DNA of 64,000 bases from NCBI GenBank assembly GCA_021292105.1, contig CM037869.1, positions 1,645,001 to 1,709,000 of the forward strand, in the 5' to 3' direction. The notes beneath the pieces are model-generated. The model had not been told where the DNA came from, searched no databases, and saw nothing but the letters and a program-made list of their open reading frames with translations. This stretch comes from Anadara kagoshimensis. Taxonomy: Eukaryota; Mollusca; Bivalvia; Arcoida; Arcidae. Below are positions 140 to 27,230 of the stretch, piece by piece; within the stretch, counting starts at the first letter, position 1; every line of letters starts with the position of its first letter. The translations under genes were made by a program, and so were the position numbers.

Positions 140-152
140 TTATACCAGATTT
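140..152. repeat. Left target-site duplication of the LINE insertion
   Basis: TTATACCAGATTT occurs here and again at 5516-5528, on either side of the LINE. The uninterrupted paralogue near 21735-21755 has the sequence once. One or two bases of the duplication may be shared by chance with the poly(A) end. Confidence 0.75.
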
Positions 153-260
153 TTTTTTTGGTATTAATAGTTTTTATTCCATCTTCCATATATTAAACAT
201 AATCATTTCATTAATATATAAATACACACTTTAACAGAGAAAAATATACAAATTATAAAT

Positions 261-3200
261 TCATCCATTTCTATCTAAAAGTAAATTAATAATATTCCAT
301 GATTGTCTTATGTTGTTTGCTATTTTGGGACTTAACATATATAGAGAGAACAGTTCTAATTTTCTGTAATCTTTGATTGATTGTAAAGCAATTTTATAGT
401 TTGGCCTGGTCTTTCTCAATTTACATAAGTATATGTGATTTTTGATGATCAGAAAACAGAGATTAATTATATGTTTGTTTGGATGATTTGTCAAACCAAG
501 AATAAAATGTCGTATGTTTTTGTCAATAAATAAACCACAACTATTGTAAAGGTCATCTAAAAGACCAAACCAAACCGATCGACTGTAACTACATTCATAA
601 AATAAGTGAATCAATGTTTCTTTTGTTTCAAAACAAAAAGTACACAGTTCTGTTTCTGAAAGTTTACACTTAAATAATCGATCATTTGTAAAAATTATAT
701 TATGATTGATCTTGAACTGCAAAGACTGCAACTTTGAATCGCTGGTAATAATAAAAGGCGATTTATATATCTGTTTCCAGTTTTTTTCGTGGATACTAGT
801 GTCAAGTTGTGTATGAAAAAAATCTTGTGTTTTAAAAGGGTCCTTTTTAACAGATTTTAAGAACATGTTGTAAAATATTTTTGAAACTTTGTCTTTCCAT
901 TTTAAATATTGTATATTAACATTTTTAATTTCTTTATTAAACAAATTATTTTTTAAGATATTTTTCCAGTGTTTTGGTATAGCATTTACTAGTCCCGCGT
1001 AACTCACATGATTTATTGAACAGCCGTATTTTTCGTTGCACTCTCCGCAGTTCAAGAAAAATCCATGTTCGTCAATAATATCATTAATAAAATAAATGTC
1101 ACAATCGACCATGTTCTTGAAAAATACCATTTTTTTATCAATTCTAATCTCGGGATTGTACCATAGAGGTTGGGAAATAATGTCATTCGGGGATGCAGTG
1201 AGGGATTGGTTTAATTTTGCCCAATTTTGAAAAACATCTATCCAAAAAGAATTGAATCCTGCACAACATTTTGATATGCCAATTTCCTGTAGGAAAAGTA
1301 TTTTATCTCCTCCAATTTTTTCAAGCGTATCTAACAAAAGACATTTCCAAGATGAGTTATTCAGAGGGTCAATTAGTTTTTTAATCCATGTCATTTTAAG
1401 TGCTCGATAAAAAGATTGTATATGAGGCACCCGAAGTCCGCCATGTTCCAGGTCGTTATACATAATATTTCGTTTAAGTTTATCTACTTTGCCATTCCAG
1501 ATGAAGTTAAAAATGTGTGATTGTATTTCATCTGTTATTCTTTTAGGGTGATCTGGAAGTGCCATGAAAGTTTGAATCAATATTGGTAATGCGATTGTTT
1601 TCACCACTGTGACTTTTCCCATTAAGGACAAATTTCTATAAGACCAGTTTTTGAGAACGTTTTTAAAAGAGGTAACCTTTTCAGTGTAATTCTCGATATA
1701 TATCGAGTCTGCTTGTAAATTATATTTTAGCCCTAGAAGTTTAAAAGATCCACTGTGATTCCATTTTAAACACTTTTTAGTTTGCAATTCCTCAATGCAT
1801 CCCCTCCTGGCCCCAATCCACACAACCTCGGTTTTTTCAAAGTTTGCTCTCAAACCAGAACAGTCGCCAAAATCTTCAATTATTTTAATAGCAGAGTTTA
1901 GAGATTCAGAGTCATCGTCCGGCATAAGGCTGGTATCATCTGCATACTGTCCTATAAGATATTCAGAATCGTTTATTGTGATGCCTTTTATTTTAGGGTC
2001 TTGTTTAATTGCTGCACTTAATAACTCAGCGGATATGATGAAAAGATAAGGGGAAAGTGGATCACCTTGTCTGACACCCCGTTGAATCTGGAAGAAACTA
2101 GAACAGTGACCGTTGTATTGAGTACAGCTTGTTATATCTGAATAAAAAGCAAGAAACCACTTGATGATTGAGTTCCCAAAACCAAAGAATTTAAGTGAAT
2201 TTTCAATAAAAGACCATTCTATGAAATCAAAAGCTTTTTCAAAATCAAGAAGAAGCAAAATACCTGGAATATTTTCTGTTTCTGTTTTTTCTAAAATGTC
2301 ATATACCAACCTACTTGTCTCCCCAATAAACCTCCCTTTTATAAAGCCTGTTTGTGATTCACTTATTATTGTATTAAGAACTGGTTTAATTCGGCTAGCA
2401 ATTGCTGCTGATGCAATTTTATAATCTACATTCAGTAAGGAAATCGGCCTCCAATTTTTTAAGTAAAATTTTGACTTTCCCTCCTTAGGAATACATGTGA
2501 TCACCCCCTGCCTTTGTGTAATAGAGAATTTACCATTATTATACCCATAATTTAATGATTTGACAACAAATTCTCTAATATCATTCCAAATTTTTTGTAA
2601 AATTCGATTGTAAATCCATCCATTCCTGGCGATTTTCCGTTTTTCATAAAATTCAAAGCATTTGTACATTCGAGATCTGATAGTTCCCCTTCAAGTGTCA
2701 CTGACTGTGTTTCATCAAGTTGATTTAAAAAGGCATTATTTTTATCAAAGAATATGTGATTTTTATCATTGCTCTGAAGGTTTTGGGATGTATATAAGGT
2801 TCTGTAAAAATCTCTTTGGGCATTTATTATATCAGACTGGCTATCCAATTCTGTACCATTATCAAGAATCAATTTTGGTATTGTTTTTTCCTGATATTGT
2901 CTTTTTTCTAAATTGCAAAAATATTTACTGCTTTTATCCCCCTCTATTAACCATTTTGCTTTCGATCTCATATTAATCCTCTTATTTTATCTTCTCTTAA
3001 AGTTTTTAATTCATGTTCTACATTTTCTATTTCGTCTCGAGATGATATGGCTTCATTTTCGTAAAGATTTTTAAGCTTATTTTCTAATTTAAATTCCTTT
3101 TCCATATTACTTTTCTTTTTATATGATGAATATGAAATTGTTTTTCCTCGTAAATTTAATTTAATCATTTCCCATAGTAGTTGGTCGTTTATTGAATATT

Positions 3201-4061
3201 CTGTTAGATTATTAACCGGGTTAATCAAATACTGGTTACATGTTTCTTTAATTGATTTTTTTGCAATATTTATATATTCTTGGTCATACAGTAAACCATT
3301 ATTAAATTTCCAAATACCCCTCCCTTTTACATGTTCTGAAAATTTAAGTTCTATTGTAACAGGTGAATGGTCGGACTTATAACAAGTGTCTATATCAGCA
3401 TTTACCAAAAAAGCTTGAACATCTAAGGAAATCAAAAAATAATCTAATCTACCCATTTTTTGATATTTTTCTTTTGGACCCCTCCAGGTATACCTTTTCA
3501 CATTAGGGTTTAGTTCTCTCCATATGTCTACAAGATCGAATTCGCTCATAATTTCGAGTATTTTTTGCTGAGCTTTTGGATTATTCTTATGGACATAATT
3601 AGTGGTGTCTGCCTGGTAATCAAGTGCCACATTTAAATCTCCACCTAAAATTATTGCGGTATTATTAAAAATACTAATATTATCCATAACTCGTTGATAA
3701 AATTGTGGTTGATCTGTGTTAGGACCATATACTGCCGCAAGAGTAAATCTCTTATTATGAAATTCTACATTTAAAATTAGAAAGTTTCCATTTGGATCTT
3801 GATTTCATCAATTATTTTGAATTGAAATGAATTATTAAATAAAATTGCAACTCCGCGACTGGTATGAGAGCAAAACCTGACACACCCTCCCCATTCATTT
3901 TTCCAATAACTTTCTATATCTTTCGTTGAATGTGTATCAATAAGAAAAGTTATGTCATATTTTGTTCTGCATCTATTAAAAAAATCTCGTCTCTTTATTT
4001 TATCGGAAAAAAGTCCTCTACAATTTAAGCTACCTATTTTTAGACCTGTATTACGCATCAT
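261..4061 (-). pseudogene. LINE ORF2: endonuclease, reverse transcriptase, zinc knuckle
   Basis: The protein nicks target DNA and copies the element RNA at the nick. Reading on the minus strand from ATG at 4061: the endonuclease part has GSLNCRG near 4040, AAVYGPN near 3735, GGDLNV near 3640 and SDHSP near 3370. The reverse transcriptase part has GKSPGMDGF near 2630, NWRPISLLN near 2440, GVRQGDPLSP near 2065 and YADDTSLM near 1935. A CCHC knuckle (C-x2-C-x8-H-x4-C) lies near 590-645. Three single-base-type frame changes are visible, near 3795 (after DEIK), at 2968 (between GLI and RSKAKW) and near 2592 (around FYKKF). Otherwise the frames stay open for 84 to 802 codons. The order and length match L1/Tx1-type ORF2. 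It is closest in style to Tx1/L1 rather than CR1 or jockey, but clade assignment needs a tree. Confidence 0.9.
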
Positions 4062-4218
4062 GATAAGGAATCAATAGTATTTTTGTAAAAAGGATGTAAA
4101 AATAAACTATTACTGTGAATGTAAGGAAAGGAAGATGTTTTTTTAGCTGTAATATTGGTCATCCTAATAACCCCCCTTGAAAACCTCGTCATTTACCCCC
4201 GGTGTAAGTTGAAAAAAG

Positions 4219-4251
<33 letters not shown>

Positions 4252-4441
4252 GGTAGGCTTCTAACGCTCATCAACAATAGTAAGTATCTGAGAAAATATA
4301 AGGTTAGAAAAAAATATATATAAATAACATATTACGTTAATACAAATAGCACATTCAATTCATACGCATAAAATAAAACAGTTGTGGTAACAAAGTAATA
4401 CCATTCATTTACAAATAAGTACAGTTATGATAATATTCTAT

Positions 4442-4523
<82 letters not shown>

Positions 4524-4557
4524 TTTGTTGGTGACAGAAATTGGTCCTTGATGGTTT
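4062..4557. other. Spacer in the LINE with A-tract and (TA)n
   Basis: This is the spacer between the NADAR domain and ORF2. It holds a plus-strand A-tract at 4212-4248 (with one G), a (CA)n/(TA)n microsatellite at 4443-4522 and no ORF. The A-tract is on the wrong strand to be the poly(A) tail of a retrocopied NADAR message, which argues against a processed pseudogene nested in the LINE. Confidence 0.6.
4452..4522. repeat. (TA)n microsatellite
   Basis: About 35 uninterrupted TA units, preceded by a short (CA)n run. It sits in the LINE spacer and its length is probably variable. Confidence 0.97.
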
Positions 4558-5000
4558 TTACTTAAATTTTTCATCTCTGATACACATCAGTAATTTTCCG
4601 AAGTGATTCTCTCCTGTTGCCCATCTTCCGGTTCCCCAAAACTCATGTGGTAGAGGGTGCACGATTTTGTAATTCAATGTATTGCATAGGGCCTTGCGAA
4701 ATTCTGGGACTTGTTCAAATTTTAAATTTAATATGTGTTTCATTACATCAAGTTTCTGTTTGTACCATTCGTATGAGGATTTAGATAGAGGTAAGAATTT
4801 TGATAAATACCTTGCTTGTTTTGCTTTCTGCATATAAAATATCCTTGGCTAATTGGTTATAATTAAAGAAGGAGGCCTTTCGGAATTGATACATATGTTC
4901 TGCACTTTTGAATTTTACGCCGCTTTCAATTAGGTTGCATGGATAAAAATTGGACATGATACATCTTTCCCTTTTACATTTACGCTTTTAGGAGATGAAT
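4558..5000 (-). pseudogene. NADAR-domain protein (YbiA-like), broken, inside the LINE
   Basis: NADAR domains cleave N-glycosidic bonds. Characterised members act on riboflavin-pathway intermediates (YbiA) or remove ADP-ribose from guanine in DNA. Minus-strand reading gives, in order, a VNVKGKD-like lead (about 5000-4960), SNFYPC (about 4955-4938), SAEHMYQFRKA (about 4900-4870), then from 4833 a 91-codon frame with VMKHILNLKF, FWGTGRW and the signature GENHFGKLLMCIRDE, ending at a stop at 4558. The conserved Glu of SAEH and the FWG and G-x-N motifs are present. Two frame changes are visible, near 4957 and near 4820. There is no intron across about 140 codons. A pyrimidine tract plus CAG just upstream (about 5001-5035) resembles a splice acceptor, so an exon origin is the main alternative to a LINE-borne ORF. 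Domain identity is strong; its role in the element is inference. Confidence 0.8.
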
Positions 5001-5515
5001 CTGAAGAAAGAAAAATAAAATAAAATAAATAAGTAAATAAAAACCGTCAAGACCAAGTTCTGTCCAGGTGAGTCGGGTGACATTATCGATCGCCAATATT
5101 GTATTGACCTTCCCTAATTTGCATATAAAAAATTGTGACCAGGAAGGTAGTTTGCAACCAAAGGCAATATTCACGAGTCTAAAATACACATGGCTTGGCC
5201 AACAAAACACGTGATGGCGTGAATATAAGCACATCTGTTAATAATCATGTTGTCATTTGACCTCGAACCACCTTACATAACATTATCGATCAGCATTTTT
5301 GTTGACCTTCTCAAACAGCTCATGTACACTGTAGTTTCATTATAATCTGACCTTCCTTATTAGAATAATTCCCGACATGCAATTGAATAACAAGATTTGT
5401 CATTATCTGTATTATTATAATTATTTTATAGGTAAGTTGACATTGCATTCAGTGGAATTATATAAGAAAGGGAAAGCTAGATAAGTTACTCAAATCAAAT
5501 GTTTATCTTCATTTT
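5001..5515. other. 5' region of the LINE insertion
   Basis: This stretch has no recognisable coding sequence. An 84-codon minus-strand frame at 4980-5234 has no family features. The region contains two loosely similar parts with 'acattatcgatc' (near 5078 and 5282) and is otherwise AT-rich. It may be the LINE 5' UTR or the end of a decayed ORF1. Confidence 0.4.
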
Positions 5516-5528
5516 TTATACCAGATTT
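5516..5528. repeat. Right target-site duplication of the LINE insertion
   Basis: The same 13 bases as at 140-152. RB-family sequence continues directly after it. Confidence 0.75.
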
Positions 5529-6139
5529 AATTTTACAGTTTCGACCATTAAACAGACGAATTTAAGTGAAGTCATAAGCATTAATGTCAAAGTTAAAATA
5601 ACTTTATTTATATCAAGATATCAGGCGAACATCAGATAAATAGAGTAAAAGAAAATGTATTAGTGTATTTTTGACTTTGTCTCCAACAAACATACATTAA
5701 AGCTTTCAGATTTTTAAAAATTAAGTTATTATTTGTACTATTACGAAACGACTAGTGGGAATATATGTCTAGATAGTGTGTATTGCGATGGTGATTTAAA
5801 ATGCTGATATTGACGTCAAATATATTAAAATATGATACTTTACTTTTCAAATAGAATTTATCAATTTATAATATCATGTAATAAAATAAACGTGATATTA
5901 TTTTTATTCGCTTGAGCTCATTTTCATAAATAAGACAGAACAAGTTTAGAATGTTCCATCCAGGACTTATCTAAAACCGATTTTTTCAACACTTGTTTGG
6001 TATACCCATGGGATACATGAATGTACACCAAACAGTTTCAAAGATAAAATTAAGCTCCATGTATGGGATCGATGATAAACTTTGTAATCATTAGTCCATC
6101 ACTAATATATAGATCACGTTCTGTCTCTTAACAATCTTA
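5529..6139 (+). repeat. RB dispersed repeat, continuing after the LINE
   Basis: The sequence is the reverse complement of parts of 20500-21740 and 40500-40800. Examples are the stretches around 'tttcgaccattaaac', 'gtctagatagtgtg', 'cgcttgagctcatttt' and 'atgggatcgatgataaac'. No coding sequence is visible. It leads into a reverse-transcriptase relic on the same strand. Confidence 0.7.
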
Positions 6140-21430: not shown

Positions 21431-22139
21431 TAAATAATCATATTTTAATATATTTGACGTCAATATCAGCATTTTAAATCAACAGAGCAATATACACATA
21501 TCTAGACATACATTCCCACTGATCGTTATTGTTATGTTTCAAAATAATAAATTAATTTTTAAAAAATTGACAGCTTCAATTTATGTTAGTTTAAGACAAA
21601 GTCGAAAATACACTGATACATTTTCTTTTACTCCATTCATCTGATGTTCGTCTTGATATAAATAAAGTTATAGTAACTGTGACATAAATCCTTTTGACTT
21701 CACTTAAATTTGTACGCAACTATTTAATGATCGAAACTATAAAATTAAATCTGGTATAATATGTAATTACGAGGGCAATGAATTCACACAACTCATATTT
21801 ATTTGTTTTTAACCAAAATGCCCCTGTCAGGTGCTGAGTTTGATTTGAATTTGTCGCTTTATTTCACTAAGGACAGTGGCGTCCTGCACATAATCCTATT
21901 TTCTATACCATGCAAGACTTGCAAGACTTGAAGAACTCGTGACGTTCTGTTTAAACACTGTTGCACATGTGCACGAGACAAATACTAAGTTGAAGGACAT
22001 CGTATGGAATCATCATAACAAGAAAAAGACATTTTGACATTTTATGAGCACCCGAATTTTTTAGATTTAAAATATCCGCCATCATCGAGATCGGTAATGA
22101 CCTTATAAATTTCCAAATAACTGCTACAATGGCCGGTTG
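21431..22139. repeat. RB repeat, right part
   Basis: It contains sequence shared with window positions 1-139 and 5529-5820 (reverse complement), and with 11570-11854 (direct). No gene is visible. Confidence 0.7.
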
Positions 22140-24480: not shown

Positions 24481-24712
24481 TTGTCGCCTAAATTTAAATG
24501 TCAGTATTTTTAATGTTATAGTATTTAAAACCATTTAATAATATGAAATAAGAAGAACCGTACACAAAGGTGAAACGTGTTTTACAAAAAATAAATCCAG
24601 TTATGTTTTAGAAAATATTTTAACTATGGAATATATCAATTGACCTCATATAATGAATAAACTATATCGACAACATAAAGTAGAAAAAAGTAACTTGGGA
24701 ACTGTGAGCTCT
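24481..24712. other. Unassigned sequence before the 24-bp satellite
   Basis: No feature recognised. Confidence 0.4.
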
Positions 24713-26550
24713 AAGTTGATACATGTCTGTATAACTAAGTTGATACATGTCTGTATAACTAAGTTGATACATGTCTGTATAATTAAGCTGATACATGTCT
24801 GTATAATTAAGTTGATACATGTCTGTATAATTAAGTTCATACATGTCTGTATAATTAAGTTCATACATGTCTGTATAACAAATTTGATACATGTCTGTAT
24901 AACTAAGTTCATACATGTCTGTATAATTAAGTTCATACATGTCTGTATAACAAATTTGATACATGTATGTATAATTAAGTTCATACATGTTTGTATAATT
25001 AAGTTGATACATGTTTGTATAACACAGTTGATGCATGTCTGTATAATTAAAATGATATATGTCTGTATCACTAAGTTGATACATGTCTGTATAACAAAAT
25101 TGATACTTGTCTGTATAACAAATTTGATGCATGTCTGTATAACTATGTTGATGCATGTCTGTATAACTAAGTTGATACATGTCTGTATAACTAAGTTGAT
25201 ACATGTCTGTATAACTACGTTGATACATGTCTGTATAACTAAGTTGATACATGTCTGTATAACTAAGTTGATACATGTTTGTATAACTACGTTGATACAT
25301 GTCTGTATAACAAAATTGATACATGTCTGTATAACTAAGTTGATACATGTCTGTATAACTAAGTTGATACATGTCTGTATAACACAGTTGATACATGTCT
25401 GTATAACTAAGTTGATACATGTCTGTATAACAAAATTGATACTTGTCTGTATAACAAATTTGATACATGTCTGTATAACTAAGTTGATGCATGTCTGTAT
25501 AACTAAGTTGATACATGTCTGTATAATTAAGTTGATACATGTCTGTATAACACAGTTGATACATGTCTGTATAACTAAGTTGATACATGTCTGTATAACT
25601 AAGTTGATACATGTCTGTATAACTAAGTTGATACATGTCTCTATAACTACGTTGATACATGTTTGTATAACAAAGTTGATACTTGTCTGTATAACAAATT
25701 TGATACATGTCTGTATAACTAAGTTGATACATGTCTGTATAACTAAGTTGATACATGTCTGTATAACTAAGTTGATACATGTCTGTATAATTAAGCTGAT
25801 AGATGTCTGTATAACAAAGTTGATACATGTCTGTATAACTACGTTGATACATGTCTGTATAACAAAGTTGATACATGTCTGTATAACACAGTTGATACGT
25901 GTTTGTATAACACAGTTGATACATGTCTGTATAACAAAGTTGATACATGTCTGTATAACTACGTTGATACATGTCTGTATAACTAAGTTGATACATGTCT
26001 GTATAACTAAGTTGATACATGTCTGTATAACTACGTTGATACATGTTTGTATAACAAAGTTGATACTTGTCTGTATAACAAATTTGATACATGTCTGTAT
26101 AACTAAGTTGATACATGTCTGTATAACTAAGTTGATACATGTCTGTATAACTAAGTTGATACATGTCTGTATAACTAAGTTGATACATGTCTGTATAACT
26201 AAGTTGATACATGTCTGTATAACTAAGTTGATACATGTCTGTATAATTAAGCTGATAGATGTCTGTATAACAAAGTTGATACATGTCTGTATAACTACGT
26301 TGATACATGTCTGTATAATTAAGCTGATACATGTCTGTATAACAAAGTTGATACATGTCTGTATAACACAGTTGATACATGTTTGTATAACACAGTTGAT
26401 ACATGTCAGTATAACAATTTTTATACATGTCTGTGTAACAGATTTGATACATGTCTGTATAACTAGGTTGATACATGTCTGTATAACAAATTTAATACAT
26501 GTCTCTATAACAAATTTGATACATGTCTGTATAACTAAATTGATACATAT
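24713..26550. repeat. 24-bp satellite, about 76 copies
   Basis: The monomer is GTTGATACATGTCTGTATAA plus CTAA. Common variants change the last four bases (TTAA, CAAA, TACG, CACA) and the seventh to tenth positions. Since 24 is a multiple of 3 and the unit lacks stops in several frames, long frames run through the whole array: plus 24653-26674 (673 codons, unit LIHVCITK) and minus 26476-24662 (604 codons, unit YTDMYQLS). No homology to a known protein repeat is visible. Substitutions are not biased to third positions, so I read the frames as by-products. Confidence 0.95.
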
Positions 26551-27230
26551 TAATGAAGAACATTGTCTCTTAAGTTATTCACTTCAGGGAGTTCGTTTAA
26601 AACGTGAAGAAACGAGTCTTATGAATTTTGACAAGGAATGTCCATCAAATATGGCACATTGTTATTGTAGGTAAGGGAATCCCGTATCCTCGCCTTATAT
26701 CAATGGGGCTGATATGGTAACTCATGTGTATAAAGCAAACCGACCTGAAGAAGTAGAGTGCAAAGCACAGTTTACGCAACCAGAAGCGAACTGCAGTCAC
26801 CTCCGGTCAAGATAAGGGGTGAAATTGGTAAGTTTTAATTTAAAGACTAATTTCATAATTTCATATAAAAACAAAAGTAATCTATGAATTCAAAGAAGTA
26901 AACATGTGTTATAATTGAGGATGATTCAAAGATATGTCCAAATATGCCGTCTCTACCTTTATAAAAAGAAGCAAGGGGTAAAACAATAACACCATTATCT
27001 TATTTATTAATAAAAATTCGGTTATAATACATCAAAATATCAATTTTAGCAACACCAAATTTGTTGCAAAGGGTTTTGCGGTGTCAAAATTCCAGGTGCC
27101 AGTAAATGGGACTATGAGGTCGATAAATTTGAACTCCATTGTTCTTCAGTAACTTAAGTCTATACGAAAGCAAAACAACCCAAATCTTTGAAAACATGTT
27201 TTGAAATGTACAAAGGGGGATAACCCCGTC
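26551..27230. other. Unassigned sequence after the 24-bp satellite
   Basis: No ORF or repeat recognised. The plus-strand frame from the satellite runs to 26674 without any family feature. Confidence 0.4.

Follow-up and report, generated by a model that had tools for sequence, protein, structure and literature searches.

Conserved splice signals suggest that a bivalve LINE joins a NADAR domain to the first half of the RNA-binding protein it encodes

The stretch of Anadara kagoshimensis DNA analysed here (the window; 64,000 nucleotides of contig CM037869.1, positions 1,645,001 to 1,709,000) carries near its start a 5'-truncated copy of a LINE of the L1 superfamily. The features of this copy and its borders, in window coordinates, are the following:

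140..152, no strand: target-site duplication on the element's 3' side, identical to 5516–5528
153..5515, minus strand: the LINE copy (sense is the minus strand, with the 5' side at 5515)
261..2690, minus strand: ORF2 frame piece 4, reverse transcriptase and zf-RVT (RVT_1, E = 1.4e-33; zf-RVT, E = 6.7e-8)
2552..2986, minus strand: ORF2 frame piece 3
2968..3804, minus strand: ORF2 frame piece 2, endonuclease region (Exo_endo_phos_2, E = 3e-4, below the Pfam cut-off)
3777..4070, minus strand: ORF2 frame piece 1, start of the endonuclease region (no Pfam match for this piece alone)
4558..5000, minus strand: NADAR exon (Pfam PF08719), its frame broken in this copy into pieces 4987–4781 and 4848–4558
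5001..5002, minus strand: predicted splice acceptor AG, phase 1 (sense CTTTCTTCAG, then ATTC), with a pyrimidine tract before it and counterparts in 8/8 lineages
5001..5515, minus strand: 3' remnant of a predicted intron, from the alignment to the full-length copy L010; the donor lies in ORF1 of L010 and L020
5080..5125, minus strand: conserved non-coding motif within the predicted intron (sense TATGCAAATTAGGGAAGGTCA...CGATCGATAATGT)
5516..5528, no strand: target-site duplication on the element's 5' side, identical to 140–152; an empty paralogous site lies at 21891–21417

The initial annotation of this DNA had described 13-bp direct repeats at 140–152 and 5516–5528 that enclose a LINE ORF2 and a NADAR domain on the same strand, with an unoccupied paralogous target site in the window. 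All of this holds: the repeats are identical, Pfam matches place the ORF2 pieces and the NADAR domain between them on the minus strand, and the joined flanks match 21891–21417 at 85 per cent. The duplication on the 3' side overlaps a T run at 151–159, which is the A tail in the sense direction. The NADAR domain was also described as complete, which is incorrect for this copy, as it is split over two overlapping frames that match PF08719, the first below the Pfam cut-off (E = 1.9e-6) and the second above it (E = 2.7e-13). ORF2, too, is broken, into four frames. Aligned to L010, the window copy starts 1248 bases downstream of the full-length 5' end, and the part of ORF1 that holds the donor is absent from it. 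A scan of positions 4400–5600 for bacterial promoters gave no excess.

Over the longest piece, the window copy is 97.9–99.4 per cent identical to 16 other fetched loci. The NADAR region is reached by 7 of the 20 fetched loci, all seven of which hold NADAR, and the six of them tested for it (all but L009) have target duplications of their own, 13–16 bp long. Five further loci (L014, L017, L019, L021, and L026) showed no convincing target duplication, the longest common stretch being 6–8 nt. Full-length copies are 6.6 kb long and consist of an L1-type ORF1 (coiled coil-RRM-CTD), NADAR, and ORF2, in this order. Because this separate ORF1 sits upstream of NADAR in the full-length copies L010, L020, and L022 (broken in L010), we rejected a replacement of ORF1 by NADAR, and the earlier placement of NADAR 'where ORF1 would be' has to be given up. 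The NADAR frame is open in the sister copies L009, L010, L015, and L022, and is open with an 8-residue deletion in L020; in L013 it is interrupted, as it is in the window copy.

ORF2 is of the L1 kind (RVT_1, E = 4.9e-35; zf-RVT, E = 1.7e-7), and its nearest solved relatives by sequence are the LINE-1 ORF2p structures (E about 1e-66, versus 3e-21 for R2). The putative apurinic-type endonuclease at its start matches Exo_endo_phos below the cut-off (E = 2.1e-4; 21.6 bits, cut-off 24.5). A Pfam search with ORF1 returned no match over the cut-off. The best Foldseek matches of its AlphaFold model, which is of moderate quality (pLDDT 73, pTM 0.42), are human LINE-1 ORF1p structures (2ldy, 2yko, and 2w7a; E = 1.2e-5), and by this predicted structure ORF1 has an L1 ORF1p-like fold of coiled coil, RRM, and CTD. 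A PHROG match, phrog_1017, has no assigned function. The family bears the L1-type insertion marks of target duplications, an A tail, and 5' truncation, which human LINE-1 shares along with the ORF1p architecture and the closest solved ORF2p; human LINE-1 differs in lacking NADAR and in that its own splicing is reported to yield defective copies (PMC5860796). Within the L1 superfamily, the element probably belongs to the Tx1 clade, a label that we borrow by analogy from a study of oyster elements (PMC12477816).

That study (Genome Biol 2025; elements in Repbase) already reports NADAR in LINEs: Tx1 LINEs of Crassostrea gigas are likewise of the L1/Tx1 kind and carry a YbiA-family NADAR upstream of ORF2. 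As far as its available text goes, and compared by description only, they differ in that NADAR is called the ORF1 protein, with mention of neither a separate ORF1 nor a splice site or a test of selection. The same source describes Ectocarpus Gypsy elements, which are also retroelements with NADAR but of the LTR type. Our search for DUF1768 together with retrotransposons returned no literature, and among titles on splicing designs of LINEs we found none that describes splicing from an ORF1 donor to NADAR.

The association of NADAR with the LINE extends across the genome. Among the 82 LINE reverse transcriptase (RT) places listed, 43 have a same-strand NADAR upstream and 0 have one on the opposite strand (expected, 0.07); these are places rather than elements, with at least three elements counted twice and two being rearranged copies in which NADAR abuts an RT fragment. 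Conversely, 88 of the 148 NADAR places listed have an ORF1 or RT in the correct order and orientation, and 60 are not tied to a LINE among the matches listed (148 of 150 rows were used, leaving out the second pieces of the window copy and of L013). NADAR is present in lineages whose RT identity falls to about 50 per cent, and the distance from ORF1 to NADAR is similar across lineages. No NADAR is among the matches listed at 39 of the 82 RT places and at 44 of 120 ORF1 places (120 of the 150 rows listed, from 152 counted, after further pieces near used rows were left out), many of which are 5'-truncated. Some NADAR-less places have long frames: the RT place C15:61198654 has a frame of 1267 codons, and the RT place C19:48972614 has an ORF1 at C19:48968497, both with no NADAR among the matches listed. 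RT and NADAR identities correlate at 0.62 over 35 pairs (35 of the 43 RT places with NADAR, excluding seven DNA matches without protein identity and one second piece); outside the window element's own family the correlation is weak (0.39; P = 0.03, n = 30).

The open NADAR frame of the sister copy L010 matches PF08719 with an E-value of 2.4e-24, and across five lineages the E-values range from 3.4e-21 to 1.7e-25, over the curated cut-off. In ten lineage pairs, pN/pS is 0.25–0.52, with synonymous sites near saturation, and by these codon comparisons the domain is under purifying selection. The check that the initial annotation had proposed, a collection of other copies of the LINE, thus favours a LINE gene: NADAR occurs in each of the seven copies long enough to hold it and at the same place in divergent sister lineages, with its codons under purifying selection. 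The NADAR model has the YbiA fold (Foldseek: 2b3w, 1.9e-6; 8bau, 3.2e-6), as do Escherichia coli YbiA, the Phytophthora nicotianae NADAR, and phage gp30.3, which share the catalytic Glu and Lys but are cellular or phage genes. Glu50 and Lys57 (L010 frame numbering), the counterparts of E43 and K50 of the P. nicotianae enzyme, are invariant in 5/5. The third catalytic residue of that group is Glu or Asp, and is His in phages, as perhaps in the LINE domain: at the position of E125, His131 aligns in the comparison with 8bau and a gap in that with 2b3w, and the loop is one residue shorter. Activity is not assured, because this third position is His or is shifted by one residue.

The earlier observation of a pyrimidine tract plus CAG before the domain was confirmed (acceptor AG, in the sense direction, at window 5002–5001), and every lineage examined has its counterpart. 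In 8/8 lineages sampled, a phase-1 acceptor opens the NADAR frame and no in-frame ATG precedes the domain; a stop lies 18–129 nt upstream in seven of the eight. A phase-1 donor, GGTGAG, occupies one codon position just before the RRM in 8/8 aligned ORF1s and has the best donor score in the ORF1 stretch scanned (donors were scored with a hand-entered weight table, and acceptors were chosen by eye). Its codons GGT and GAG are fixed in 8/8 aligned rows, though they make up 30 and 22 per cent of their codon families, whereas the six other invariant residues with codon choice use two to five codons; by a rough estimate, invariance of the donor's synonymous sites while neighbouring codons vary comes to about 5e-9. 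This comparison of synonymous sites led us to reject the view that the signals resemble splice sites by accident. Both donor and acceptor are conserved in sequence. Between ORF1 and the acceptor, the motif at 5080–5125 is the only stretch that aligns between L010, L049, and L050 (blastn). The L051 copy has the acceptor and no ORF1 in range. Among the places listed, no intron-less copy was seen, the smallest gap between ORF1 and NADAR being >500 nt. The alternative once offered, a captured host exon, was right in that NADAR is exon-like behind an acceptor, but the exon is one of the LINE itself and not a one-off host capture.

These conserved signals suggest that the element fuses NADAR with the first half of the RNA-binding protein it encodes, and NADAR is probably a LINE gene expressed by splicing from the ORF1 donor to the NADAR acceptor. 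The LINE would then encode three products: ORF1p (coiled coil-RRM-CTD), ORF2p, and the NADAR enzyme. The unspliced RNA would yield ORF1p and ORF2p and serve as the replication template, and a part of the RNA would be spliced from the donor, which lies in ORF1 shortly before the RRM, to the acceptor immediately ahead of NADAR. The product would be a coiled-coil-NADAR fusion protein of about 235 residues, made beside the full ORF1p. Barley BARE1 offers a parallel, as partial splicing of its RNA is reported to give a subgenomic message (PMC3735527), which here is predicted from splice-site sequence; BARE1 differs in being an LTR retrotransposon whose spliced RNA makes Gag only, with no extra enzyme. 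The shared coiled coil may let the fusion enter ORF1p trimers, and such mixed trimers would carry the enzyme in the LINE ribonucleoprotein. There it may remove ADP-ribose from guanine, or a related conjugate, put by host ADP-ribosyltransferases on LINE RNA, cDNA, or nicked target DNA. A role against ADP-ribosylation, taken as the purpose alone, fits the conserved catalytic Glu and Lys and is a tentative proposal. Equally tentative is the full reading: a LINE clade with conserved alternative splicing, as in retroviruses, that makes a third, coiled-coil-NADAR protein, places a de-ADP-ribosylating activity in the retrotransposition particle, and so counters a host ADP-ribosylation defence acting on retroelement nucleic acid.

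With about the same plausibility, the expressed NADAR may have another substrate, acting on small ADP-ribose compounds or other N-glycosides (e.g. a host signal), or may be a non-catalytic binder. Small ADP-ribose compounds and riboflavin-pathway intermediates have been named as NADAR substrates, the small compounds mainly for phage versions (PMC9503650), and the third catalytic position of the LINE domains is not clearly Glu or Asp. Against this, the catalytic Glu and Lys are kept, and four E. coli-related NADAR types, including the phage one with His, are reported to hydrolyse guanosine-ADP-ribose in vitro (PMC11125620). The same source calls the role of animal NADARs unclear; an exception is a NADAR-domain protein of nematode trans-splicing (PMC9303266).

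Rather unlikely is a separate middle ORF, in which NADAR is translated from unspliced RNA (by an internal start, a non-AUG start, or reinitiation) and the splice-like signals are incidental or otherwise used. The three ORFs do stand in order on one strand, and a possible start Met lies just before SNFYPC in the L010 family, L049, and L051. However, L050, L048, and the L056 family have Leu in place of that Met, a conserved VKG..C stretch lies upstream of it, no further in-frame ATG is found upstream in the eight lineages, and this reading explains neither the fixed GGTGAG codons nor the matching phase.

It is less probable still that splicing serves as a brake, diverting RNA from ORF1p and poisoning ORF1p trimers with a coiled-coil protein; the element would thereby keep its copy number in check, and NADAR activity would be secondary. 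The predicted fusion would retain the coiled coil and lose the RNA-binding half, and splicing of human L1 is reported to lower retrotransposition (PMC5860796), but a mere brake does not need the purifying selection that acts on the entire NADAR domain, catalytic residues included. That NADAR is a functionless passenger captured from a host exon is very improbable in spite of its exon-like acceptor and the many NADAR places not tied to a LINE, and a one-off capture was rejected, since NADAR is in each long-enough copy and in lineages of divergent RT at a similar distance from ORF1, and pN/pS between lineages, well under 1, already contradicts it.

The usual description of a LINE is of a single RNA with two ORFs. 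Splicing of human L1, for its part, has been described as inhibiting retrotransposition (PMC5860796). A spliced NADAR fusion would be an unusual route to a third LINE protein, and a splice donor maintained in ORF1 by selection would mean that a LINE allots part of its RNA to replication and part to an accessory enzyme. Should this enzyme remove ADP-ribose from guanine, an ADP-ribosylation defence of invertebrate hosts against retrotransposons would be indicated.

The LINE copy in the window (153–5515, minus strand) is flanked by identical 13-bp direct repeats (140–152 and 5516–5528), its joined flanks match an uninterrupted target-site paralogue at 21891–21417, and its ORF2 and NADAR domain read along the same strand, as the initial annotation described. 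The NADAR domain, reported there as complete, is split over two overlapping frames, and ORF2 is broken into four; neither is intact in this copy. Comparison with full copies shows that the first 1248 bases of a 6.6-kb element are missing. Elsewhere in the window, a long array of short repeats (24644–26674) has open frames of more than 600 codons on both strands, with LIHVCITK-like units on the plus strand; it is a tandem repeat and by itself no gene.

A 1-kb ORF2 probe matched at least 41 places in the same genome (best 40 of 218 candidates scored), 14 of which, window included, match at 99–100 per cent over the entire probe. Twenty loci, the window's own among them, were compared: 17 match at ≥97.9 per cent over their longest piece and the other three at about 90 per cent. 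The initial annotation proposed that NADAR upstream of ORF2 in most full-length copies, with selection on its codons, would support a LINE gene. All seven copies long enough to reach the region (window, L009, L010, L013, L015, L020, and L022) contain the domain, and a separate NADAR-region probe recovered the same seven places at 94–100 per cent, plus two at 83–84 per cent. Three copies share a common 5' end (sense 656 in L010, 646 in L020, and 2306 in L022), which defines the 6.6-kb element. Six of the seven have their own target duplications of 13–16 bp (the 5' end of L009 lies outside the sequence compared); since these copies hold NADAR, the domain moved with the element. NADAR is a real LINE gene.

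Contrary to the initial suggestion, NADAR does not stand where ORF1 would be: a separate 265-codon ORF1 frame lies upstream of it, uninterrupted in L020 and L022 and broken in L010. The AlphaFold model of this protein (pLDDT 73, pTM 0.42) has a helix at residues 28–100, then an RRM-like part and a C-terminal part, and all three Foldseek matches at E < 0.001 are human LINE-1 ORF1p structures. The closest solved relatives of ORF2 in a sequence search are LINE-1 ORF2p. The order ORF1–NADAR–ORF2 recurs in the lineages L049, L050, and L048, with ORF1–NADAR gaps of 0.73–0.79 kb (L010, L049, and L050) and NADAR–ORF2 gaps of roughly 0.35–1 kb; no ORF1 falls within range in the L051 copy.

The association extends across the genome. 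An ORF2 protein search found at least 59 places (best 56 of 7014 candidates scored), and pooling with the probe matches gave 82 reverse transcriptase (RT) places. At 43 of these (0.07 expected), a same-strand NADAR match sits no more than 12 kb upstream, and among the matches listed none is on the opposite strand or downstream. NADAR itself occurs at at least 150 places scored out of 341–468 candidates, many in near-identical dispersed sets (e.g. at least nine sharing a 74.2-bit score). Among 148 NADAR places, ORF1 lies no more than 5 kb upstream at 76 and RT no more than 7 kb downstream at 42, in each case with matching strand; at least one of the two is present at 88 places, and both at 30. 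No opposite-strand NADAR lies within 6 kb of any ORF1 place among the matches listed. The 60 places without a LINE tie among those matches could belong to additional LINE lineages or to other genes. Likewise, no NADAR was listed for 39 of 82 RT places, including C15:61198654 with its frame of 1267 codons, or for 44 of 120 ORF1 places; C19:48972614 has ORF1 3.4 kb upstream and no listed NADAR. Such absences of NADAR, ORF1, or RT say little, because the searches score best candidates only. In two old copies about 84 per cent like the young family (L036, C13:7493385–7494405; L037, C13:11610093–11611107), NADAR abuts an RT fragment, and ORF1 remnants (L043 and L044) lie 14–24 kb away on the same contig; these copies are apparently rearranged and duplicated.

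Between lineages, NADAR has pN/pS of 0.25–0.52 at pS of 0.65–0.80 (five lineages, 10 pairs), which indicates purifying selection over long divergence. ORF1 has pN/pS of 0.19–0.39 at pS of 0.77–0.87 (four lineages, six pairs). Pairs within the young family differ by 0–1 synonymous and 0–3 nonsynonymous changes, too few to judge selection.

NADAR in LINEs is already in print: passages of one study state that in Crassostrea gigas several Tx1 LINE families appear to have a NADAR domain as their ORF1 protein and that Ectocarpus Gypsy elements carry NADAR (PMC12477816). We found no published report of the ORF1–NADAR–ORF2 order or of the splice sites described below in a search that most subscription journals and preprints lay outside.

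The predicted intron runs from a donor inside ORF1 (GGTGAG) to an acceptor just before NADAR. The pyrimidine tract noted initially has a counterpart in all eight lineages (65–100 per cent pyrimidine, ending in AG; acceptors picked by eye), and a conserved V.G stretch follows each putative acceptor, in phase 1. A stop 18–129 nt upstream of the acceptor closes the NADAR frame in seven lineages; in the eighth, L057, the sequence ends after 72 open bases. No lineage has an in-frame ATG between the acceptor and that stop (or within the 72 bases of L057), and the Met before the SNFYPC stretch is replaced by Leu in L050, L048, and the L056 family. The top-scoring donor in the ORF1 stretch scanned falls at one codon position, always in phase 1 (codon G|GT), in L010, L020, L049, L050, L048, and L052–L055, the last four being lineages chosen before their sequences were seen (four of four at the expected position). 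The codons at the donor are GGT and GAG in all eight aligned ORF1 rows. Across these elements GGT accounts for 30 per cent of its codon family and GAG for 22 per cent, whereas the six other invariant residues with a synonymous choice use 2–5 codons each. The chance of both being fixed is about 5e-9, given the first row and independent synonymous sites, a rough figure owing to shared ancestry. Two old copies are degenerate; the donor survives in L043 and is gone from L044. Every ORF1–NADAR gap among the matches listed is longer than 500 nt, and no intron-less copy turned up. The predicted splice design is conserved and, judged from these sequences, is the surprising part of the LINE's NADAR gene.

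The non-coding rest of the predicted intron is unalignable among L010, L049, and L050, with the exception of one motif, present once or more per element: TATG(C/T)AAAT(A/T)AGGGAAGGTCA, then CGATCGATAATG-like sequence.

Window ~5080–5125; L010 2118 and 2316, L049 2508, L050 3100 and 3196 (sense): conserved motif in the predicted intron

It contains an octamer-like site and an AGGTCA-like site; possible roles are those of an internal enhancer, a promoter, or an RNA element. In L009 (C18:5948500–5957000), the ORF1–NADAR interval also holds 1.8 kb of other sequence (sense ~356–2154). This stretch, which includes a 170-codon frame with many charged residues, may be a further mobile element.

Glu50 and Lys57 in the L010 frame match the catalytic Glu and Lys that one study names in the NADAR enzymes of Phytophthora and Escherichia coli C7 (PMC11543638), and both are invariant in five of five sequences. 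The third catalytic residue may be His131, at an alignment ambiguous by one residue; if so, it would resemble phage NADARs, which have His there. Phage NADARs, according to sections of one report, hydrolysed guanosine-ADP-ribose in vitro but left cells unprotected from DarT1 (PMC11125620), and parts of another describe NADAR domains in animal RNA viruses and propose a role against host ADP-ribosylation (PMC9503650). In the sequence and AlphaFold model, the donor lies inside the coiled-coil helix, after residue 87 and ~15 residues ahead of the first RRM strand. Splicing would thus cut out the RNA-binding half of ORF1p and fuse the coiled coil to NADAR, and we infer that this product could form mixed trimers with full ORF1p, which would place the enzyme inside the LINE particle.
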